This document shows, one piece after another, positions 1,044-26,897 of a DNA stretch of 35,652 nt. The translations under genes and the position numbers were made by a program. Origin of the DNA: a virus; IMG/VR virus record IMGVR_UViG_3300046787_000055, positions 1 through 35,652 of that record. One strand, 5' to 3'. Each line of letters begins with the position of its first letter. Within the stretch, counting starts at the first letter, position 1. Under the pieces are notes generated by a model. That model worked only from the letters and a program-made list of their open reading frames with translations, had not been told where the DNA came from and did not search any database.

Positions 1044-3776
1044 TTAAAGGTTAGCGGCATCAAGTCGTGCCTTGAGTGATTGGATTAGGGCTTGTTGTTC
1101 TTGGATGGCTTTGACCAAAACAGGAATTAAATCCTGACGCACAGATTTGTATGGTTCTTCACCTTCAGGTGCTTCATCTTTCCATTCGTCAATTAGGTCA
1201 GGAAATACTTCTTCAAACTCTTGTGCAATAAAGCCACGAGCATTTTTAATGTTTGCGCCTTTGCCTTCTTTCCAATCATACAAGCGAGGTTTAAGAGCCA
1301 GTACTTCAGCAAGACCAGCATCTAAGTCGCGCACATTCTCTTTGAAACGAATATCAGAAATGGCACTAATTGTGGTGCTTGTGGCAAACACAGTTCCACC
1401 CATACCGACATAGAATCGGAAAGCACTAGCACCAGTTGAATAAACATCAAGAGTTGAGCTGGTATTAACTGTGGATGACCTTGTGCTTCTTACAGCGCCA
1501 TCAGCAAGAAACCTGCCGCCAGTTCCAGATGTTTCATTTGTACTCGTAGTCCCCACCAGCAAGTTACCGCTAGAGTCTATTCTGGCTCGTTCTGTGTCGT
1601 TAGTACCAAAACGCAAAGAGCCTGTGCTGTACTGTTGCATGACACTCATGTCATACGGACTATTATTATCAAAATAGATTTGTCCGTAAGTAGTGCCACC
1701 GCTTGCAAAGTTAATACCAGTTTTAATTGCTCCAGTACCATCAACAGTCAACTGCTTCATTGCAGTACCTGAGTAGGCATGAACTTTTGCAGTAGGGCTT
1801 GTAGTGCCTACACCAAGTTCACCATCGGCATCCAGAGTCATCGCAGTCGTAAAGGAGATAGCGTTTCCTGCTGTGCCTGATGCGGCTAAAAACCAAGCAT
1901 GAGTGCCACTACTCTGATAATAATAAGTAGCAGGGCCATTAGCCTTGTAAGTCCAATCACTACCATAGTAAGCGTTACCAATAATACCGACTTGGTTGGT
2001 ATATCCAAACACTCCACCATAAGAAGATATATCAAAGCCCTTTAAGGTTGCCCAAGCACTTGGAGTAACTCCCAAGCCTAGATTGCCTGATGTATTAAGC
2101 GTCAATTGAGTAGTGCCACCAGTAGTACCAATCAACATTCCGCTTGTAGGGTCAACTTCAATACGCCCAGCGTATGCAGAATCAGCCGCATTTCTAAACG
2201 ACACAGAAGATGCGCCATCACTTGTACGACCAATTAGCCACAAATGATTGCTAGATGCTGTATCTTTAACTACCAACTTTCCTGCCGCAGCAGAAGTAGC
2301 ACCAACAAATAAACTTGTCCCATCAAAGACTAGCGCAGAGCCACTTGTCAGAACCTTTGAACCATTGAGATAGGTTACTCCGTTGGCTGTTCCTCCAGAG
2401 AGGGTTACAGCACCAGAAGCAGAGATGTCTGTCAATCCAGAAATAGCACCTGTATCACTCAAAATACCAACAGAATTCTGAATAATCTTGCCAGTAGTAC
2501 TATCAAAACGAGCCAAAGCATTGTCTGTAGAAGATGCAGGGCCAGTAACATCACCCGATCCACCGCCACCAGAAGCAGCAATCGTGATTGAACCACCACC
2601 ATTGGTAATAGAAATACCAGTACCCGCTGTCAAAGTAGCTTTAGCAAGAGTATTACCTGTTGTGTTACCAATCAACAGTTGACCATCTGTGTAGCTAGTC
2701 TGACCTGTGCCACCATTGGCGACAGGAAGAGTTCCTGTTACGCCTGTAGACAAAGGCAAGCCTGTCAAGTTAGTCGCTGTACCACTTGAAGGAGTACCAA
2801 GCACACCACCATTGACAACAGGAGCACCAGAAGAGCCTGTATTGACCGCCAAAGCTGTAGCCACGCCAGTACCTAAACCAGATACACCTGTAGCAATTGG
2901 AAGACCTGTAGCATTCGTTAAGGTTGCGCTAGAAGGTGTACCCAAAGCAGGTGTCACCAATGTAGGAGAGTTAGCAAAGACTAAAGAGCCTGTGCCAGTT
3001 TCATCTGTTACAGCAGAGATAAGGTTTGCACTTGATGGAGTCGCTAGGAAGGTTGCTACGCCTGTTCCAAGACCTGAAACACCTGTGCTGATAGGCAAGC
3101 CAGTAGCATTGGTCAAAGTGCCGCTAGAGGGCGTTCCAAGGGCGGGAGTGACCAAGGTTGGGCTATTGGCAAACACCAAAGCACCTGAGCCTGTTTCATC
3201 ACTAACAGCAGATGCTAAGTTAGCAGATGAAGGAGTAGCCAAGAAAGAAGCAACACCAGTACCTAAACCACTTACACCAGTAGAGATCGGCAATCCTGTT
3301 GCGTTTGTCAAAGTCGCAGAAGCGGGAGTTCCCAATGCGGGAGTCACCAAAGTAGGACTGTTTGACAGAACAACAGAGCCTGTACCAGTAGATGAAGTTA
3401 CGCCAGTACCACCATTTGCAACAGGCAAAGTACCAGTAATATCAGAAGTAGATAGGCTAACAGCATCCCAAGAAGCGTTAGTGCCATCAGTCTGGAGATA
3501 CTTGTTTGCGTTACCTGTTTGGCTAGGCAAGAGGTTGTTCAAAGCAGCAGTAGCAGTAGAAGCTCCTGTACCGCCATCAGCAATAGCCAAATCTGCAATA
3601 CCAGTAATTGAGCCACCAGTAATATTGGCATTAGAGTTGTCAGTCTTAGTGGCAACAGCAGTCTGAATATTGTTGAACTCGGTGTCAATCTCAGCACCCT
3701 TGACAATCTTTAAAGGATTGCCAGGCGACAAATTGTCTTTACTGGCGAAATTGGTGGTCTTTGTGTAGTTACTCAA
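1044..3776 (-). CDS. Tail fibre / tailspike with C-terminal S74 intramolecular chaperone
   Basis: A 910-residue adhesin-type protein. It has a short virion-attachment N-terminus, then three Gly/Thr/Ser-rich 65-residue repeats (about residues 139-310), a long beta-rich shaft, and a C-terminal Peptidase_S74 domain. The S74 domain has the expected SDIRFKENV start (Ser 807, Lys 812 as the probable self-cleaving dyad), GFIAQEFEEVFPDL, and a terminal helix. In this family the chaperone domain directs trimer folding and is released by autocleavage, and the mature fibre binds the host surface. Translation starts at a TTG codon (3776-3774), with GGAG seven bases upstream; no nearby ATG fits. It lies directly after the tail nozzle gene. 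Confidence 0.92.
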   Translation of the reverse strand: MSNYTKTTNFASKDNLSPGNPLKIVKGAEIDTEFNNIQTAVATKTDNSNANITGGSITGIADLAIADGGTGASTATAALNNLLPSQTGNANKYLQTDGTNASWDAVSLSTSDITGTLPVANGGTGVTSSTGTGSVVLSNSPTLVTPALGTPASATLTNATGLPISTGVSGLGTGVASFLATPSSANLASAVSDETGSGALVFANSPTLVTPALGTPSSGTLTNATGLPISTGVSGLGTGVATFLATPSSANLISAVTDETGTGSLVFANSPTLVTPALGTPSSATLTNATGLPIATGVSGLGTGVATALAVNTGSSGAPVVNGGVLGTPSSGTATNLTGLPLSTGVTGTLPVANGGTGQTSYTDGQLLIGNTTGNTLAKATLTAGTGISITNGGGSITIAASGGGGSGDVTGPASSTDNALARFDSTTGKIIQNSVGILSDTGAISGLTDISASGAVTLSGGTANGVTYLNGSKVLTSGSALVFDGTSLFVGATSAAAGKLVVKDTASSNHLWLIGRTSDGASSVSFRNAADSAYAGRIEVDPTSGMLIGTTGGTTQLTLNTSGNLGLGVTPSAWATLKGFDISSYGGVFGYTNQVGIIGNAYYGSDWTYKANGPATYYYQSSGTHAWFLAASGTAGNAISFTTAMTLDADGELGVGTTSPTAKVHAYSGTAMKQLTVDGTGAIKTGINFASGGTTYGQIYFDNNSPYDMSVMQQYSTGSLRFGTNDTERARIDSSGNLLVGTTSTNETSGTGGRFLADGAVRSTRSSTVNTSSTLDVYSTGASAFRFYVGMGGTVFATSTTISAISDIRFKENVRDLDAGLAEVLALKPRLYDWKEGKGANIKNARGFIAQEFEEVFPDLIDEWKDEAPEGEEPYKSVRQDLIPVLVKAIQEQQALIQSLKARLDAANL
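2847..3362 (-). repeat. Tandem 65-residue repeats inside the tail fibre gene
   Basis: Units begin with NSPTLVTPALGTP at residues 139, 204 and 269, an exact spacing of 65 residues (195 bp); the third unit is partial. Amino-acid sequence is nearly constant between units, but many third codon positions differ. The block is therefore a protein-level repeat rather than a recent DNA duplication. It probably forms repeated segments of the fibre shaft. Confidence 0.85.
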
Positions 3777-5332: not shown

Positions 5333-5976
5333 TAGACTGCCTCAAAATTGTCTTCAGGGTAACGAGTGCTTTCCATTGCAATAGCATCAGCAAGCATTCC
5401 TCTGAACAAAGCATAAGCCTCATTAGAGTTAGTTCCACCATCTTCACCACGCTCAATCAAAGCACGAGCATAGGCACTCTGAGTCACCAAATAGTCCAAG
5501 ACTTTGACTGTAGTGCTATCAGAAGAAAGATTAGCTTGAGGGACAATCACATCAAACAAGATTGTGTAAGCGCCATCAGGAATTGGGTACAAATCAATCT
5601 TTGTATCGCCACTAGAATCTACTCCGTTGTAGCAGTATTCAGATGGGATTCCTTGAACAGGAGTTACAAAGTTCAACTTACGATTCATGCTTGTGAAAGG
5701 AACATCACCCATGACAACATTGCTAGTTGTATTAAGAGCATCCATAACACGGAACTTTTGACCAACACCAGTCAAAGAATAAGAATGTGTGCCACCAGTA
5801 GTTGAGATTGTTACTGTTTGTGACAAGCAATTCCAAGTGTATGTGTCTTCGATCTGACGCTTTGCATCATTGACAAACTTGCCAATCAAAGAAGAATATG
5901 TTGTTTCGCCAACAGTAGATACTGTGCTTTCACGCAAGCGAATTAGCACATCGTTAACAAGTTCTAAGTAGGTCAT
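5332..5976 (-). CDS. Tail tubular protein A / head-tail adaptor-like (T7 gp11 type)
   Basis: A 214-residue protein that opens with MTYLELVNDVLIRLRES and then FVNDAKRQIEDTYTWNCL, a helical pattern characteristic of gp11-like adaptor proteins. A beta-rich middle (HSYSLTG, DGAYTILFDVIVPQ) and a C-terminal helix follow. In podoviruses this dodecameric ring joins the portal to the nozzle. It lies immediately before the nozzle gene and overlaps the upstream 111-aa gene by ATGA. The assignment rests on the N-terminal pattern, the length and the gene order. Confidence 0.82.
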   Translation of the reverse strand: MTYLELVNDVLIRLRESTVSTVGETTYSSLIGKFVNDAKRQIEDTYTWNCLSQTVTISTTGGTHSYSLTGVGQKFRVMDALNTTSNVVMGDVPFTSMNRKLNFVTPVQGIPSEYCYNGVDSSGDTKIDLYPIPDGAYTILFDVIVPQANLSSDSTTVKVLDYLVTQSAYARALIERGEDGGTNSNEAYALFRGMLADAIAMESTRYPEDNFEAV

Positions 5977-6308
5977 GTTCTTTGCGCTCCTTGTACTTCA
6001 AATGTACAAATGAAAGTATAAGTGCTTCCTGTTTCTGTTGTTACACGAACTTGATCGCCCTCTTCAAGCACGATATATGCACCACCATCAAACTTTAGAT
6101 ATTCTTTAGCAGTTAAGCTATATTCTTTAAGAATATCGTAAGAAGTTGATGAACTAGAGTCATACCATTGTGCTGTGAAGTGCTTGGTAGAGCCGCTAGC
6201 ATTATGTGCATAAAGAAGATTAAAGAGAGCGTAATATCCAGTCGGTACTGTATAAACAGTAGTCAATGTTGCCGCTGTTGGGCTAATTCCGACTGAAACT
6301 GGTCTCAC
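5973..6308 (-). CDS. Small beta-rich virion-type protein (111 aa)
   Basis: Residues 15-110 are almost entirely alternating hydrophobic/polar beta-strand sequence (TTVYTVPTGYYALFNLLYAHN, KYL-FDGGAYIVLEEGDQVRV). This is the style of phage head-decoration or tail-tip accessory proteins with an Ig- or jelly-roll-like fold. It is linked by ATGA overlaps to the basic 97-aa gene upstream and to tail tube A downstream, which places it in the virion-assembly operon. I do not recognise a named family. Confidence 0.75.
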   Translation of the reverse strand: MRPVSVGISPTAATLTTVYTVPTGYYALFNLLYAHNASGSTKHFTAQWYDSSSSTSYDILKEYSLTAKEYLKFDGGAYIVLEEGDQVRVTTETGSTYTFICTFEVQGAQRT

Positions 6309-6598
6309 TTCTTATTCCTCTTAGAGATCGCTGCGGCTTTTGCTTTAGCGTCTTCCTTGGACGATGCTCCCCAAGCTCTAAGAGAAAGTAAAAGTCGGGT
6401 AGGCTTTCCATCTTTCATCTCAGCGCCAGGCATATTGCCCATTCGTGCTAAAAAGGATGCCCTACGAGGGTTATCTCCCGACTTGACTGGTGCTTTTAAA
6501 TTACCACCTGTTTCTGCATTATACGATGCTCTTCCTTTGGCATTCAAGCCCCCAGAAGCAGATTTTCCTTCTTTTCTTTGCCAAACAGGAGAAGTCAT
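6305..6598 (-). CDS. Basic DUF6321-like phage protein (97 aa)
   Basis: The sequence contains WQRKEGKSASGGLNAKGR, then SGDNPRRASFLARMG and LLSLRAWGASSKEDAKAKA. This order is characteristic of the DUF6321 family of small Lys/Arg-rich phage proteins; I recall the family from pattern and have not searched it. The function is unknown. High positive charge and location among head/tail genes suggest a virion-associated or DNA-contacting role (inference). It is the last of four consecutive basic miniproteins joined by ATGA overlaps. Confidence 0.8.
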   Translation of the reverse strand: MTSPVWQRKEGKSASGGLNAKGRASYNAETGGNLKAPVKSGDNPRRASFLARMGNMPGAEMKDGKPTRLLLSLRAWGASSKEDAKAKAAAISKRNKK

Positions 6599-6741
6599 TT
6601 CTTCTTAGCAGTCTTAGCCGCAGCCTTGAAAGCGGCCTCTGTTGGAGCGCCTTTTGAGCCTACCTTACGCATCTTTTCCTTAGAACCCGCCTTGATGCGT
6701 TCTCGTTTGGCATTGATATTGGCGTAAAGACCCTGTTTCAT
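6595..6741 (-). CDS. Basic miniprotein (48 aa), GLYANINAKRERI type
   Basis: Starts MKQGLYANINAKRERIKAGS and ends in a Lys/Ala-rich tail (KAAAKTAKKK). About a third of the residues are Lys or Arg. The ATG overlaps the upstream stop and the TGA overlaps the downstream start, so it sits in an uninterrupted chain of coupled cistrons. Similar short proteins occur beside portal and head genes in many phages. Function unknown; nucleic-acid binding inside the capsid is a guess from charge. Confidence 0.75.
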   Translation of the reverse strand: MKQGLYANINAKRERIKAGSKEKMRKVGSKGAPTEAAFKAAAKTAKKK

Positions 6742-6902
6742 TTCTTCATCCTTGGCTTAGACATACCTGCTTGCGATAAAGCAATGGCAACCGCCTGTTT
6801 AGGCTTTTTAACCACAGGGCCACCCTTGCCAGAGTGCAGAGTACCTGCTTTGTACTCTCGCATAACCTTAGAGATTTTTGCCTCTGCTTTGGTCTTTTTC
6901 AT
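6738..6902 (-). CDS. Basic miniprotein (54 aa), DUF6496-like
   Basis: The motif VMREYKAGTLHSGKGGPVV followed by KQAVAIALSQAG is typical of DUF6496 (recognised by pattern, not searched). Similar sequences appear in phages and in bacterial genomes. The protein is strongly basic and ends KPRMKK. It is coupled by ATGA overlaps on both sides to other basic miniproteins. Function unknown. Confidence 0.8.
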   Translation of the reverse strand: MKKTKAEAKISKVMREYKAGTLHSGKGGPVVKKPKQAVAIALSQAGMSKPRMKK

Positions 6903-12131: not shown

Positions 12132-12806
12132 TCAGACCTCATAGTGATTGTTCTTACGCATATTCTCAATTGCGGGAATAATTTGCAAGTTGTTTGGCAC
12201 ATGAAGTCCGCAAACATTTTCGCCCTGCAACGGGATTATATGATCAACATGCCAGTTTTGACCACTTTCTCGTGATCGCATAGATGCTACCTGATAGTAG
12301 CATTGTATTTTCAATTTATCAAATTCCGTCAACCAACTTGGTGTGCGCTGTAATTTTGCAGCTCTTCTTTTAGCACAGTAAGCCAATACAAGTCCAAGAT
12401 TATTTTTAATCCACAATTTTTTAACTTCTCTTCTTTTAGAAATAGTTTCTGCTTTTCTTAAAGCAATACGTTCTTTGTTTTCTTGGTCATATTTTTGTTG
12501 GTAAGCTTTTATTTTTTCTTTATTTTTTAAAACGTAATCTCTTAAAGTCGCTTTTCTACCTTTTGAATTTTTTTGTCTCTTTTCAGTATATTCAGCCATA
12601 GTCATAAAGCCTTCTCTTTCACGCAATCTAGCGTGTTCTGCTTTTCTTGACTCAGGATTAGCTAATCTATTAAGCTTAGTTTTTTCATAATGACAGACTT
12701 TGCAAAAATTCAAATGCCCATCTGCCATTTGTTTATGTTTATGAAACAATGAAATAGGCTTAACCTGAAAACAGCCTTTACAAGTTTTTGTCAGATTAAG
12801 CGTCAT
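12132..12806 (-). CDS. HNH homing-type endonuclease between terL and portal (224 aa)
   Basis: The N-terminus holds two CXXC zinc pairs (KTCKGC, FCKVC). A long Lys-rich helical linker follows, then the HNH core (HVDHIIPLQGENVCGLHVPNN) with ENMRKNNHY at the end. The core is closely similar to that of the endonuclease at 358-1035. It fills the junction between terminase and portal with only 7 and 2 bases to spare. It is markedly AT-rich compared with both neighbours, as expected of a mobile gene. Some terminase-adjacent HNH proteins aid packaging cleavage, but the homing-type architecture makes a selfish element likelier. Confidence 0.87.
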   Translation of the reverse strand: MTLNLTKTCKGCFQVKPISLFHKHKQMADGHLNFCKVCHYEKTKLNRLANPESRKAEHARLREREGFMTMAEYTEKRQKNSKGRKATLRDYVLKNKEKIKAYQQKYDQENKERIALRKAETISKRREVKKLWIKNNLGLVLAYCAKRRAAKLQRTPSWLTEFDKLKIQCYYQVASMRSRESGQNWHVDHIIPLQGENVCGLHVPNNLQIIPAIENMRKNNHYEV

Positions 12807-21703: not shown

Positions 21704-22066
21704 TCAAAGATTTTTTGTGAAATTAGGGTTTCCCTTAAAAAGCCTACGAGCTTGTGCATTCATCACAGCATACTCAGCCTTAGTAAAGATGCCTTTAGCG
21801 TTCCTGATATCAAAAGGATTGAGTAAGCAGCGACCTGTTTCATCTACTGTAGTCTTAACTCTCCTTTCAATCATGTGATCTGCCAAGGTGTACTTAGCTA
21901 AGTTATGGCGTCCTACTTTGACAATCTCAGTAGTGAGTTCACCTTTGTAGCGTAACTTCTTTGCTGTTGACAAAACAGTAGCCTTTGTCATACCAGTTAA
22001 GTCTGCTATTTCAGAAGAGGTTAGAGGGCCATTCTGTAAAGCCTTAATGAGTCTTTCTTGGGTCAT
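21704..22066 (-). CDS. Winged-helix DNA-binding protein (120 aa)
   Basis: Residues 1-60 form a wHTH: MTQERLIKALQNGPLTSSEI, ADLTGMTKATVLSTAKKLRY, KGELTTEIVKVGRHNLAKYT. The helix-turn-helix and beta-wing are clear. The C-terminal half has a second small helical region with GIFTKAEYAVMNAQARRLF. It is transcribed just ahead of the initiator and probably regulates early transcription. It overlaps the 60-aa gene upstream by ATGA. Confidence 0.78.
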   Translation of the reverse strand: MTQERLIKALQNGPLTSSEIADLTGMTKATVLSTAKKLRYKGELTTEIVKVGRHNLAKYTLADHMIERRVKTTVDETGRCLLNPFDIRNAKGIFTKAEYAVMNAQARRLFKGNPNFTKNL

Positions 22067-22245
22067 AGTTTTTCTAGATCAATTGGTTTGTTCAGGTGAA
22101 TCTCGAGAGTCCTGGCAAGCAAAGCCGTTACAGCCGCTGTGAAGTCCTCTGGATGATCCACATAGACACTAGCCATGCGATTAGCGTAGCCCTGTAGGGT
22201 TTCCGCACAAGTTTGTTCCATTTGTTCGATGTTCATGCCAAACAT
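22063..22245 (-). CDS. Hypothetical early protein (60 aa)
   Basis: A small helical protein with ETLQGYANRMASVYVDHPED and FTAAVTALLARTLEIHLNKP. It is the first gene of the early minus-strand block beside the divergent region 22246-22422. No good ribosome site lies before the ATG at 22245; a second ATG at 22236 is possible. It couples to the winged-helix gene by ATGA. Function unknown. Confidence 0.62.
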   Translation of the reverse strand: MFGMNIEQMEQTCAETLQGYANRMASVYVDHPEDFTAAVTALLARTLEIHLNKPIDLEKL

Positions 22246-22324
22246 AATAATGTTGTTTTTTTGCTTGTCTATTAGGGTTTTCCATTACAATGTTTTCATC
22301 GCTTGGAGGCGATAATCTAGTAGA

Positions 22325-22408
22325 CCCAATAGAGCAGTCTGCATGGTACTAGCCATGTCCTCCAACTTCATTTAATCGTGAAGAGACTGTTCCATTGGGT
22401 TTTTTTTT
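22325..22408 (+). ncRNA. Structured three-way-junction RNA ending in T9 (attenuator or small RNA)
   Basis: The arms 22325-22340 and 22384-22399 pair over 16 positions with one A-C mismatch and one G-U. Inside lie two perfect hairpins: CATGG/CCATG (22342-22346 with 22353-22357) and CTTCA/TGAAG (22366-22370 with 22379-22383). Nine T residues follow directly (22400-22408). This gives a three-way junction with an intrinsic-terminator end. It stands in the gap 22246-22422 just before the HNH-AP2 gene. The next hairpin GGC-TTGGAG-GCC (22409-22420) holds the Shine-Dalgarno of that gene. It could terminate transcription, control it, or be a small RNA. Confidence 0.62.
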
Positions 22409-22422
22409 GGCTTGGAGGCCAT

Positions 22423-22914
22423 ATGCTGACACAAGAAATCTTAAGAGAAAACTTTAGATACGAACCAGAAACAGGGCATCTTTTCTGGATAAAAAGATCG
22501 CAAAGAAGAAATTTAAGCAAGCCAATTTCATCAAAAAACCCTAAAGGTTACATACAAGTTTGTACAAAACTAAGTGGAAAATCAAAAACATATGACATCC
22601 ACAGGTTAATTTGGATTTATGTTTATGGTTCAATACCTAACCAAATAGATCATATCAACGGCATTAGAGACGACAACAGACTTTGTAATTTGCGTGAAGT
22701 TACTCATCAACAAAACATGATGAACCAAGCAAAAAGAAGTTCAAACAAAACTTATAAAGGCATTTATCTTTCTTCAAACAAGAAAAAATGGGTTGCTGAA
22801 ATTTGTTTTAATTACAAAAGAAAGTACCTTGGAAGTTTTGATACTCCAGAGCAAGCAAGTGAAGTTTATAACAACGCTGCCAAAGAAATTTTCAAAGAAT
22901 TTGCAAGAACATAG
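22423..22914 (+). CDS. HNH endonuclease with C-terminal AP2-type DNA-binding domain (163 aa)
   Basis: The N-terminal part (RYEPETGHLFWIKRSQRRN) leads to the HNH core, HRLIWIYVYGSIPNQIDHIN followed by GIRDDNRLCNLREVT. The C-terminal 45 residues (TYKGIYLSSNKKKWVAEICF, RKYLGSFDTPEQASEVYNNA) form an AP2-like domain. This is the classic free-standing phage homing endonuclease plan and matches the gene at 24099. I chose the ATG at 22423, after GGAGG, not the ATG at 22375, which lies within the structured RNA. The gene is AT-rich relative to the flanking ones. Confidence 0.88.
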   Translation: MLTQEILRENFRYEPETGHLFWIKRSQRRNLSKPISSKNPKGYIQVCTKLSGKSKTYDIHRLIWIYVYGSIPNQIDHINGIRDDNRLCNLREVTHQQNMMNQAKRSSNKTYKGIYLSSNKKKWVAEICFNYKRKYLGSFDTPEQASEVYNNAAKEIFKEFART

Positions 22915-23105
22915 GGTTTCTCCTAATGTTCAAGTAAAAAACCTGTGGCACATTAGAGGTGTTGGGCAACTTTCCTCTCGAAGTCCATCGAGATAAACAG
23001 TTGCAATGCCATCGAAACTTGCGCTCAACATGGTTGATTGAATCAAGCGTAAAGCAGGGACGAATTGCAAAAACGGACATTTTTGATAAACAGATAGGAG
23101 TGAAT
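22915..23105. other. 191-bp gene-free stretch with alternative hairpins
   Basis: No convincing gene is present. Hairpin AGAGG/CCTCT (22955-22959 with 22974-22978), containing GTTG/CAAC (22961-22964 with 22967-22970), overlaps by two bases with CTCGA/TCGAG (22977-22981 with 22988-22992). The two are therefore mutually exclusive. The stretch ends in the leader ATAGGAGT and the ATG at 23106. A frame open from 22959 joins the next gene but lacks a ribosome site. Confidence 0.5.
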
Positions 23106-23306
23106 ATGCCGATACTTAATGGAAAGAATGTAGTAAACCTAGAGGTAGATGGAGTGGATAGTAAAGACTATCCTGATTTCGCAGACGCATACTTTAGCTA
23201 TGCTTGCTATGAAGATGGAACACCTCTGACAGAAGATGAGTTAAACAAACTCACCGATCTAGCAAATGATGTTCTTTGGGAACTAGCTTACGAAAGTCTC
23301 CACTAA
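23106..23306 (+). CDS. Conserved small phage protein, VNLEVDGVD type (66 aa)
   Basis: Contains NVVNLEVDGVDSKDYPDFAD followed by AYFSYACYEDGTPLTEDELN, and ends ELAYESLH. This sequence plan is widespread in early or recombination modules of phages infecting proteobacteria and is hypothetical there too. The ATG at 23106 has AGGAG five bases upstream, which decides it over the upstream in-frame ATG at 22959. The stop overlaps the next start as TAATG. Confidence 0.8.
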   Translation: MPILNGKNVVNLEVDGVDSKDYPDFADAYFSYACYEDGTPLTEDELNKLTDLANDVLWELAYESLH

Positions 23307-24098: not shown

Positions 24099-24608
24099 AT
24101 GGAAACACTAGCAATTGACCATGATTATGTTTTGTCAGCATTTGACTATCAAGATGGAAATCTTATTAGAAAGATTGGAAGGGCAGGAGAGGTTGGTCAA
24201 GTTGCTGGTTGCGTCCATAAAGGAACAGGCTATATCCATGTGAAGATCAAAGGTAAAGCATACAAAGCACATCGCCTTATTTTCTTGTACCACTACGGAT
24301 ATTTGCCTGATTTCGTAGACCATATTGATGGCAATAAGGCTAACAACAAAATTGAGAATTTGAGAGCTGCAACCAAAGAGGAGAATTGTCGCAATCAAAA
24401 AATTAGATCAACAAACAAATCTGGGTGCAAAGGAGTGAAATGGGTTAAGTCTTACAAAAAATGGAAAGTCGAGGTTTGCAAAAACTACAAACAAATTAGT
24501 TTTGGTTTGTATGAAGATTTAGAGTTAGCAAGTCTTGTTGCAATAGAAGCAACTGAGTTAATACATGGCAGATTTTCTGCTTACAAAGGAGTTTTAAATG
24601 GAAAATAA
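24099..24608 (+). CDS. HNH endonuclease with AP2-type domain between ERF and SSB-like genes (169 aa)
   Basis: The HNH core is [20 protein letters not shown] with [15 protein letters not shown]. The C-terminal AP2-like domain reads [39 protein letters not shown]. It shares architecture with the gene at 22423. It starts directly after the ERF stop and its end overlaps the SSB-like start by 11 bases. It is inserted exactly between two recombination genes without disturbing either, as homing genes do. Confidence 0.88.
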
Positions 24609-26410: not shown

Positions 26411-26598
26411 TGCCTCAAATTGACATGGGTTCAACTTTCTCAACCCATAAGTTCAAATTCTGTACCAAATGTGATACAGATAAACCCCCAGAAGGCGGTA
26501 TTGAGAATGGTCAAAAGTGGATATGCCAGTCCTGTTGGTTAAAGAAAATTACAGGTATTAACTTAAAACAAAACAGAATAGACGGAGGAAAACGATGA
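26407..26598 (+). CDS. Zinc-finger-like small protein (63 aa)
   Basis: Contains KFCTKCDTDKPPEGGIENGQ and KWICQSCWLKKIT, two CXXC pairs about 20 residues apart, forming a simple zinc ribbon. The C-terminus is basic (NLKQNRIDGGKR). Linked by ATGA overlaps to both neighbours. Likely a small nucleic-acid or protein-binding factor. Confidence 0.75.
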   Translation: MMPQIDMGSTFSTHKFKFCTKCDTDKPPEGGIENGQKWICQSCWLKKITGINLKQNRIDGGKR

Positions 26599-26897
26599 GT
26601 TACGCTAATACAGAAATGAAGGTCATCCAATGGGGTGAGGCTAGGCAGATTGTCCAAAACAGCACACCTTATGCCCAAGCAGTTAAAACTCGTGAAGAAC
26701 TACAAGAGTTGTTCACAGCCATTGCTAAAGGCGATAGAGCAGAAATGGCAGACGCATACGGAGATATTCTTGTAACCCTAGTAATGGGTGCTGCTTGCGC
26801 TGATTTAGACCTTGTAGAGTGCTTTAAAGGCGCTTACGAGGAGATTAAAGACCGAAAAGGATTCCTCAATAAAGAGGGCATCTTTGTTAAGCAGTAA
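26595..26897 (+). CDS. MazG-like nucleotide pyrophosphohydrolase (100 aa)
   Basis: Contains TREELQELFTAIAKGDRAEM, then ADAYGDILVTLVMGAACADL, with the EEXXE...EXXD metal-binding pattern typical of MazG/all-alpha NTP-PPases. The C-terminus DRKGFLNKEGIFVKQ also fits phage MazG-like proteins. It may hydrolyse nucleotides or ppGpp-type alarmones to keep the host productive. Last gene of the plus-strand operon; its end overlaps the converging endolysin gene by 11 bases. Confidence 0.82.
   Translation: MSYANTEMKVIQWGEARQIVQNSTPYAQAVKTREELQELFTAIAKGDRAEMADAYGDILVTLVMGAACADLDLVECFKGAYEEIKDRKGFLNKEGIFVKQ

Follow-up and report, generated by a model that had tools for sequence, protein, structure and literature searches.

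What does a structured RNA directly upstream of an HNH endonuclease gene do in a virus genome, and does it serve that gene alone? The locus lies in the IMG/VR virus record IMGVR_UViG_3300046787_000055, the whole of which (35,652 nt) was analysed here and is referred to as the window. An initial annotation described a 96-nt block in which an outer helix of 16 positions, with one mismatch and one G-U pair, encloses two perfect 5-bp hairpins and runs directly into nine T residues. It noted no named RNA family of this form, and suggested an attenuator, a small RNA or part of a mobile element. The outer helix, both hairpins and the T-tract are present, as are the hairpin at the ribosome site of the HNH gene and a further hairpin with the same loop upstream. 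The three-way junction likewise stands; the conserved unit, however, is larger, starting at 22297 and including two pseudoknots, with a -10-like box in front, all of which had been missed.

Architecture and covariation of the RNA

The RNA occupies 22297–22408 (+) and is approximately 110 nt long, corresponding to model positions 1–105 plus the last T of the U-tract. It scores 106.3 bits (E = 1e-20, cmsearch; the window sequence belongs to the training alignment), and the model search identified only this one copy in the whole record. A 5' hairpin (P0) is followed by a three-way junction of helices P1 to P3, the outer of which, P1, runs into the U-tract. P0 (22298–22313, ATCGC-TTGGAG-GCGAT) carries the loop L0 (22303–22308). 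The 5' strand of P1 (22325–22340) pairs with 22384–22399 over 16 positions, including one A.C mismatch and one G.U, and an additional pair between A22324 and T22400 is possible. P1 encloses the hairpins P2 (22342–22357, CATGG-TACTAG-CCATG) and P3 (22366–22383), and its 3' strand together with the U-tract (22400–22408) forms a putative intrinsic terminator-like end (22384–22408). Directly thereafter, the hairpin P4 (22408–22421, GGC-TTGGAG-GCC) contains the Shine-Dalgarno (SD) sequence GGAGG (22414–22418) of the HNH gene, and its loop, UUGGAG, repeats that of L0. The fold of 22325–22408 is markedly stable (z = -6.85; none of 200 shuffles equally stable), and the initially annotated 96-nt block also exceeds its shuffles (z = -5.12). 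A simple terminator and promoter scan of the window did not flag the element because its loop is too long for such a scan.

Two further complementarities, which a nested fold cannot display, were found by inspection. The strand CUCCAA in the junction segment J2/3 (22360–22365) is complementary to both UUGGAG loops, those of L0 and P4, and CUAGUA (22317–22322) is complementary to the P2 loop UACUAG (22347–22352). The pairings of J2/3 with L0 (PK1) and of CUAGUA with the P2 loop (PK2) are two 6-bp pseudoknots which, as read from the covariation of both, dock P0 and its 3' flank onto the junction.

Covariation was assessed in a 51-sequence alignment with both pseudoknots written in, of whose cells 97.3% form standard pairs. 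Double-sided changes occur in 32 of the 43 pairs (shuffled mean 18.6; none of 500 shuffles reached this level), with a covariation score of 0.477 versus 0.159 for shuffled and at most 0.086 for slid alignments. Among the helices, double-sided changes were observed in 3 of 5 pairs of P0 (97.6% of cells paired), 14 of 17 of P1, 4 of 5 of P2 (100% paired) and all four modelled pairs of P3. The pseudoknots are the less biased tests, since the alignment was fitted to the nested helices and not to them; 4 of 6 pairs are double-sided in PK1 (99.7% paired) and 3 of 6 in PK2 (98.0% paired). PK1 occurs as UUGGAG/CUCCAA, UGGGGA/UCCCCA, UUGGCG/CGCCAA, UUGACG/CGUCAA and UUGGCA/UGCCAA, and PK2 as CUAGUA/UACUAG, CUAGCA/UGCUAG, GAGUA/UACUC and others. 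Furthermore, two homologues not used for model R2 retain both pseudoknots by new changes: L368 with CUCAGUA/UACUGAG (PK2) and UUGGCG/CGCCAA (PK1), and L369 with UGUAGUA/UACUGCA (PK2, one G.U) and UUGGUC/GACCAA (PK1). Compensatory changes in homologues, which the initial annotation had named as a check, are therefore many, and the RNA withstands it.

The only invariant unpaired positions, G50, U67 and C68, lie at the junction, where they adjoin an invariant UCU:AGA. The last three pairs of the inner part of P1 show no changes in the family, and a mismatch, present in 28 of 51 members, divides this inner part from an outer part of 7 bp. L0 contains a YUNR sequence in 50 of 51 members. YUNR is a U-turn motif known from fast-pairing target loops of antisense RNAs.

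Distribution and genomic context of the family

Homologues upstream of more distant HNH genes, with the same layout in different bases, were the starting point of the family search. Three pattern scans of IMG/VR followed by a covariance model (R1) yielded 51 distinct sequences scoring 53–127 bits on approximately 75 contigs, a count that depends on the three sequence patterns, so that more divergent members will be missing and the pattern-bound bases CUAGUA, UACUAG and CAGUCUGC are over-represented as conserved. Exact patterns of 16–17 bases mostly matched sequences lacking the structure, which among the pattern matches in genome contigs was absent in all but one. A protein scan of genome contigs gave no lead to the family, and blastn searches of phages and plasmids with the window RNA or the UGGGGA form returned nothing useful. 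Low-scoring reverse-strand model matches (22–36 bits) overlap true ones and reflect the near-symmetry of the fold.

In Rfam 15, the window gave no match at the gathering score, and neither 22270–22440 (E up to 10) nor 12 loci with divergent members (E up to 1) gave a relevant one. The sole upper-strand match in the scan of this region, the cis-regulatory RNA bglG-cis-reg (RF03530), was rejected at 19.2 bits against a gathering score of 80 (E = 0.2, chance level). No description of the family was found in the open-licence literature. As the initial annotation had supposed, the family is new to Rfam 15, and it represents a candidate new Rfam family from environmental phages. Collections of cultured phages are almost entirely devoid of it.

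The two homologues outside the training set are L368, the circular genome of a Manatee Spring phage that was deposited under two accessions (MW202462 and MW202544), and L369, in a genome of the order Burkholderiales that was picked from the same order as a Burkholderiales metagenome-assembled genome. Only 2 of 399 genomes of this order contain the RNA, and no further copies were found in samples of the class (369 genomes) and the family (28 genomes); by its distribution it therefore looks like a phage RNA. These two bacterial genomes are the sole indication of a host. In L369 the RNA lies between a MazG-like gene (identified by inspection) and a DUF1376 primosomal gene. In L368 (MW202544), a hypothetical protein is annotated antisense over the RNA (5901–6143, -), and the replication-protein ORF behind the RNA (6111–6800, +) is without annotation in the deposited record.

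The placement of the RNA is nearly constant at both ends. In the window, a -10-like box (TACAAT, 22286–22291) ends 5 nt before the RNA, and TANNNT sits at precisely this offset in 35 of 53 members (31 matching TATAAT at 5 or more of 6 positions), compared with 0–8 members at any other offset. Because of this fixed offset, the RNA should begin at P0. The -35 sequence of the window copy is weak, and several replication-gene members have a -35 hexamer at a distance of 17 nt, for example TTGACA-17-TATATT in L311. At the other end, at least five T residues are found within the first 7 nt after P1 in 51 of 51 members, and the U-tract ends approximately 11–19 nt before a start codon on the same strand (assigned by eye in L268 and L255).

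The genes that follow are of different kinds, named by family models for representatives and by inspection for the rest. HNH-type genes follow in 33 of 51 members (by inspection), and the representatives were confirmed as HNH_3 with AP2, NUMOD4-HNH or other HNH PHROGs. Replication initiators follow in nine members, with representatives matching Lin1244_N, a DnaD-like helicase loader and replication-initiation PHROGs. One member precedes an SNF2-type helicase gene, and the remaining downstream genes are unknown, too short or DUF1376-like by eye only. In the window, the gene (22423–22914, +) encodes a 163-aa HNH_3 + AP2 endonuclease (HNH_3 E = 4.9e-17, phrog_99 E = 6.5e-65; AP2 match below the Pfam cut-off). 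A P4 loop that copies the exact L0 hexamer on a different stem was tallied in 24 of 53 members, and was confined to the UGGGGA and UUGGAG forms, whose L0 is itself usable as an SD.

The mobile unit at the window locus

The RNA block is located between a leftward gene (22063–22245) and rightward genes that include an ERF-type recombinase, through which the site was found and compared in eighty relatives. The site is filled in the window, L002, L015, L082, L102 and L110, and empty in L034, L014, L028 and others. Empty sites contain a spacer resembling TTGTCT-ATTAGGGTTTATCCCTA followed by an AT-rich, -10-like stretch, which is likely a promoter that has an operator-like palindrome. This palindrome is split in the window, L002, L015 and L082 by a unit of approximately 640 bp (22273–22919 in the window, both end repeats included) consisting of the -10 box, the RNA and the HNH gene, with an 8-bp TAGGGTTT at each end (22273–22280 and 22912–22919); the HNH stop codon lies inside the right copy. 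The comparison of filled with empty sites thus shows that the RNA is here part of a mobile unit and travels with the HNH gene, as had been suggested initially, although the family as a whole is not tied to homing endonucleases, many members preceding replication genes. The best reading of the sequences is that the leader was brought into the early promoter/operator of the phage by the TAGGGTTT-flanked HNH element. The palindrome targeted by the insertion (22270–22290 in the window) is conserved and operator-like, reads TTAGGGTTTATCCCTAA and lies between divergent genes; the spacer at this site exists in several unrelated variants among the relatives.

Between four element lineages (window, L002, L015 and L110) the RNA block differs at only 0–2 of 103 sites, whereas the HNH gene differs at 23–34% of sites (Fisher p 9e-9 to 7e-17). 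Conservation through recent common descent of the element in its entirety is rejected by this contrast. In addition, the 16-nt leader before the RNA is more variable than the RNA in 4 of 6 comparisons (p < 0.05). The RNA may have recombined between element lineages.

Several further elements and genes were observed. L264 contains two RNA-HNH elements head to head (2848–2957, -; 3623–3728, +), which have different L0 forms, UUGGAG and UUGGCG. In L259 (RNA at 858–964), the downstream HNH protein ends in GFMNKEGIFVKEQ, resembling the end, GFLNKEGIFVKQ, of a MazG-like gene in the window (26595–26897), a likeness suggesting that duplication of the target gene's end occurs in other RNA-HNH elements as well. 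The window encodes three further endonuclease-like genes (358–1035, 12132–12806 and 24099–24608) that have no copy of this RNA, and the family scan confirms an HNH domain for 24099–24608 only.

Predicted function and a neighbouring RNA

Constant placement before unrelated genes is what cis-acting leaders show, and it argues against a role tied to any one gene product. Of the functions suggested initially, attenuation is best supported by this fixed position between a -10 box and the start codon, with termination itself being a prediction. We consider it likely that this new phage RNA family represents a cis-acting 5' leader and transcription attenuator, and that it is probably a switch controlling when the downstream genes are turned on. 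Transcription would begin at P0, and the nascent RNA would form the three-way junction, with P0 and the following strand docked by PK1 and PK2. P1 would double as the helix that closes the core and as an intrinsic-terminator stem, with the U-tract ending shortly ahead of the ribosome site. In the default state, P1 would zip fully and transcription would stop, giving a product of approximately 110 nt. If some factor, the trigger that we infer, stabilised the pseudoknotted core, the outer 7 bp of P1 would be unable to close because a single nucleotide separates PK2 from the base of P1, and transcription would read through into the gene. The partner loop of PK2 is at the far end of P1, and hand geometry suggests that a closed P1 together with PK2 would be strained unless the outer pairs opened. 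PK1, PK2 and outer P1 have estimated energies of similar magnitude and, with this layout, would fit a choice, made during transcription, between reading through in a pseudoknotted state and terminating, as published for the HMP-PP riboswitch (PMC6478431). The sign could also be opposite, with the folded core favouring termination. Counting against the attenuator is the weak -35 of the window copy, and against a switch the low number (three) of invariant unpaired positions on which a metabolite pocket could rely.

Translation may provide a second layer of control in most HNH-linked forms, in which P4 copies the L0 loop. J2/3 could pair either with P0 or with the SD, and the latter pairing in the read-through mRNA would lower translation. 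Ribosome-site sequestration is known from phage homing endonucleases such as I-TevI of T4. The hairpin hiding the SD of the window HNH gene resembles this arrangement, but its loop copies an upstream hairpin loop and is complementary to a junction strand, and the leader also precedes replication genes.

A more specific and tentative version, which we regard as doubtful, is a phage-borne riboswitch or signal-sensing RNA that would read the state of the host (a metabolite, an ion or a host factor) during transcription and decide on the synthesis of the replication initiator, the HNH elements having taken over the switch. The HMP-PP (thiS motif) riboswitch has a possibly pseudoknotted aptamer embedded in a terminator stem, and an alternative structure disrupts the stem near the U-run (PMC6478431). 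Both RNAs appear to place a conserved core within an intrinsic-terminator stem directly before a gene, here a covarying core enclosed by P1 and the U-tract. They differ in that a three-way junction, a docked 5' hairpin and two pseudoknots are present here, and in that thiamin (HET-P) genes follow there, versus HNH endonucleases, replication initiators and a helicase here.

A second parallel is the repZ leader of plasmid ColIb-P9 (IncI-alpha). There, a pseudoknot upstream of the ribosome site is reported to control synthesis of the initiator and to be blocked by the antisense Inc RNA. It involves a UUGGCG hairpin loop before a replication initiator gene, as in the replication-gene members here (L0 = UUGGCG, J2/3 = CGCCAA). 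The pseudoknot partner there is just upstream of the ribosome site, whereas here it is in J2/3, with P3, P1 and the U-tract coming after it, so that a putative terminator lies between it and the gene. Neither a leader peptide nor an antisense RNA was evident in the present sequences. The likeness is one of motif and is no evidence of descent, and by analogy the RNA may work partly like the repZ leader without belonging to it.

Among the alternatives to the cis-acting attenuator, a trans-acting small RNA, in which the terminated RNA of approximately 110 nt is itself the product and J2/3 (CUCC-rich in many members) pairs with the SD of the downstream gene or of other mRNAs, fares best, though we think it unlikely. 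Stable small RNAs usually have a compact fold, a terminator and a 5' hairpin close to the start site; in the window, the HNH ribosome site is complementary to J2/3; and the mimicry of L0 by P4 would suit a trans-acting RNA as much as a cis-acting one. A free small RNA gene, however, would not need a constant 11–19 nt to the start codon of unrelated genes; moreover, J2/3 is engaged by L0 with covariation, and its CGCCAA form in replication-gene members is no anti-SD.

Next comes a constitutive terminator or insulator without a switch, which would keep expression of the next gene low and protect the 5' end of the transcript. P1 with the U-tract is the strongest and simplest part of the RNA and few unpaired bases are invariant, yet a plain terminator needs neither two covarying pseudoknots with a docked 5' hairpin nor near-total conservation beside a gene diverging by 23–34%, and we hold this reading to be improbable.

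It is very improbable that the RNA is part of the homing machinery, with the endonuclease or the mobility of the element depending on it as IscB depends on its omega-RNA. Such a role would agree with its almost unchanged transfer with the HNH gene between element lineages and with the 33 of 51 members before HNH-type genes (by inspection), but many members precede replication initiators, an SNF2 helicase or unknown genes instead of an endonuclease, the RNA is common to several different HNH types, and scans of the window protein report HNH and AP2 families only, without a RuvC domain.

Other candidates were rejected: a group I intron (no Rfam intron match, an intergenic insertion and no interrupted gene), a HEARO RNA (no Rfam match in the window), an omega-RNA of IscB (a 163-aa HNH_3 + AP2 protein with no RuvC reported) and an element acting solely as a DNA cruciform or operator (in view of the frequent G.U pairs and the covarying pseudoknots). 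Control by CsrA/RsmA is weakened because members with UUGGCG, UUGACG, UUGGGG or UUGGCA lack the GGA that is found in L0 of the window. The put-type RNA of phage HK022 modifies the polymerase to pass downstream terminators; the RNA described here has a U-tract at its own 3' end.

Little is known of how phage replication genes are controlled at the RNA level, and in this family replication initiators and homing endonucleases are joined by a shared compact leader. The family suggests that the control RNA carried by selfish endonuclease elements is one which phages employ for replication genes of their own as well. The pseudoknots and the terminator stem are now defined base by base, and the putative switch is therefore directly testable with compensatory mutants.

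A second candidate structured RNA was identified in the window at 22955–23095, just downstream of the HNH gene and before the gene at 23106–23306. It has no Rfam match and 13 distinct homologues, in which the helix GUUGGGC/GCUCAAC and a hairpin around GAAGUCCAUC both covary. A GUCC/GGAC pseudoknot and the pairing UUGCAAU/AUUGCAA are also common to the homologues, and other relatives have a short hairpin in its place.
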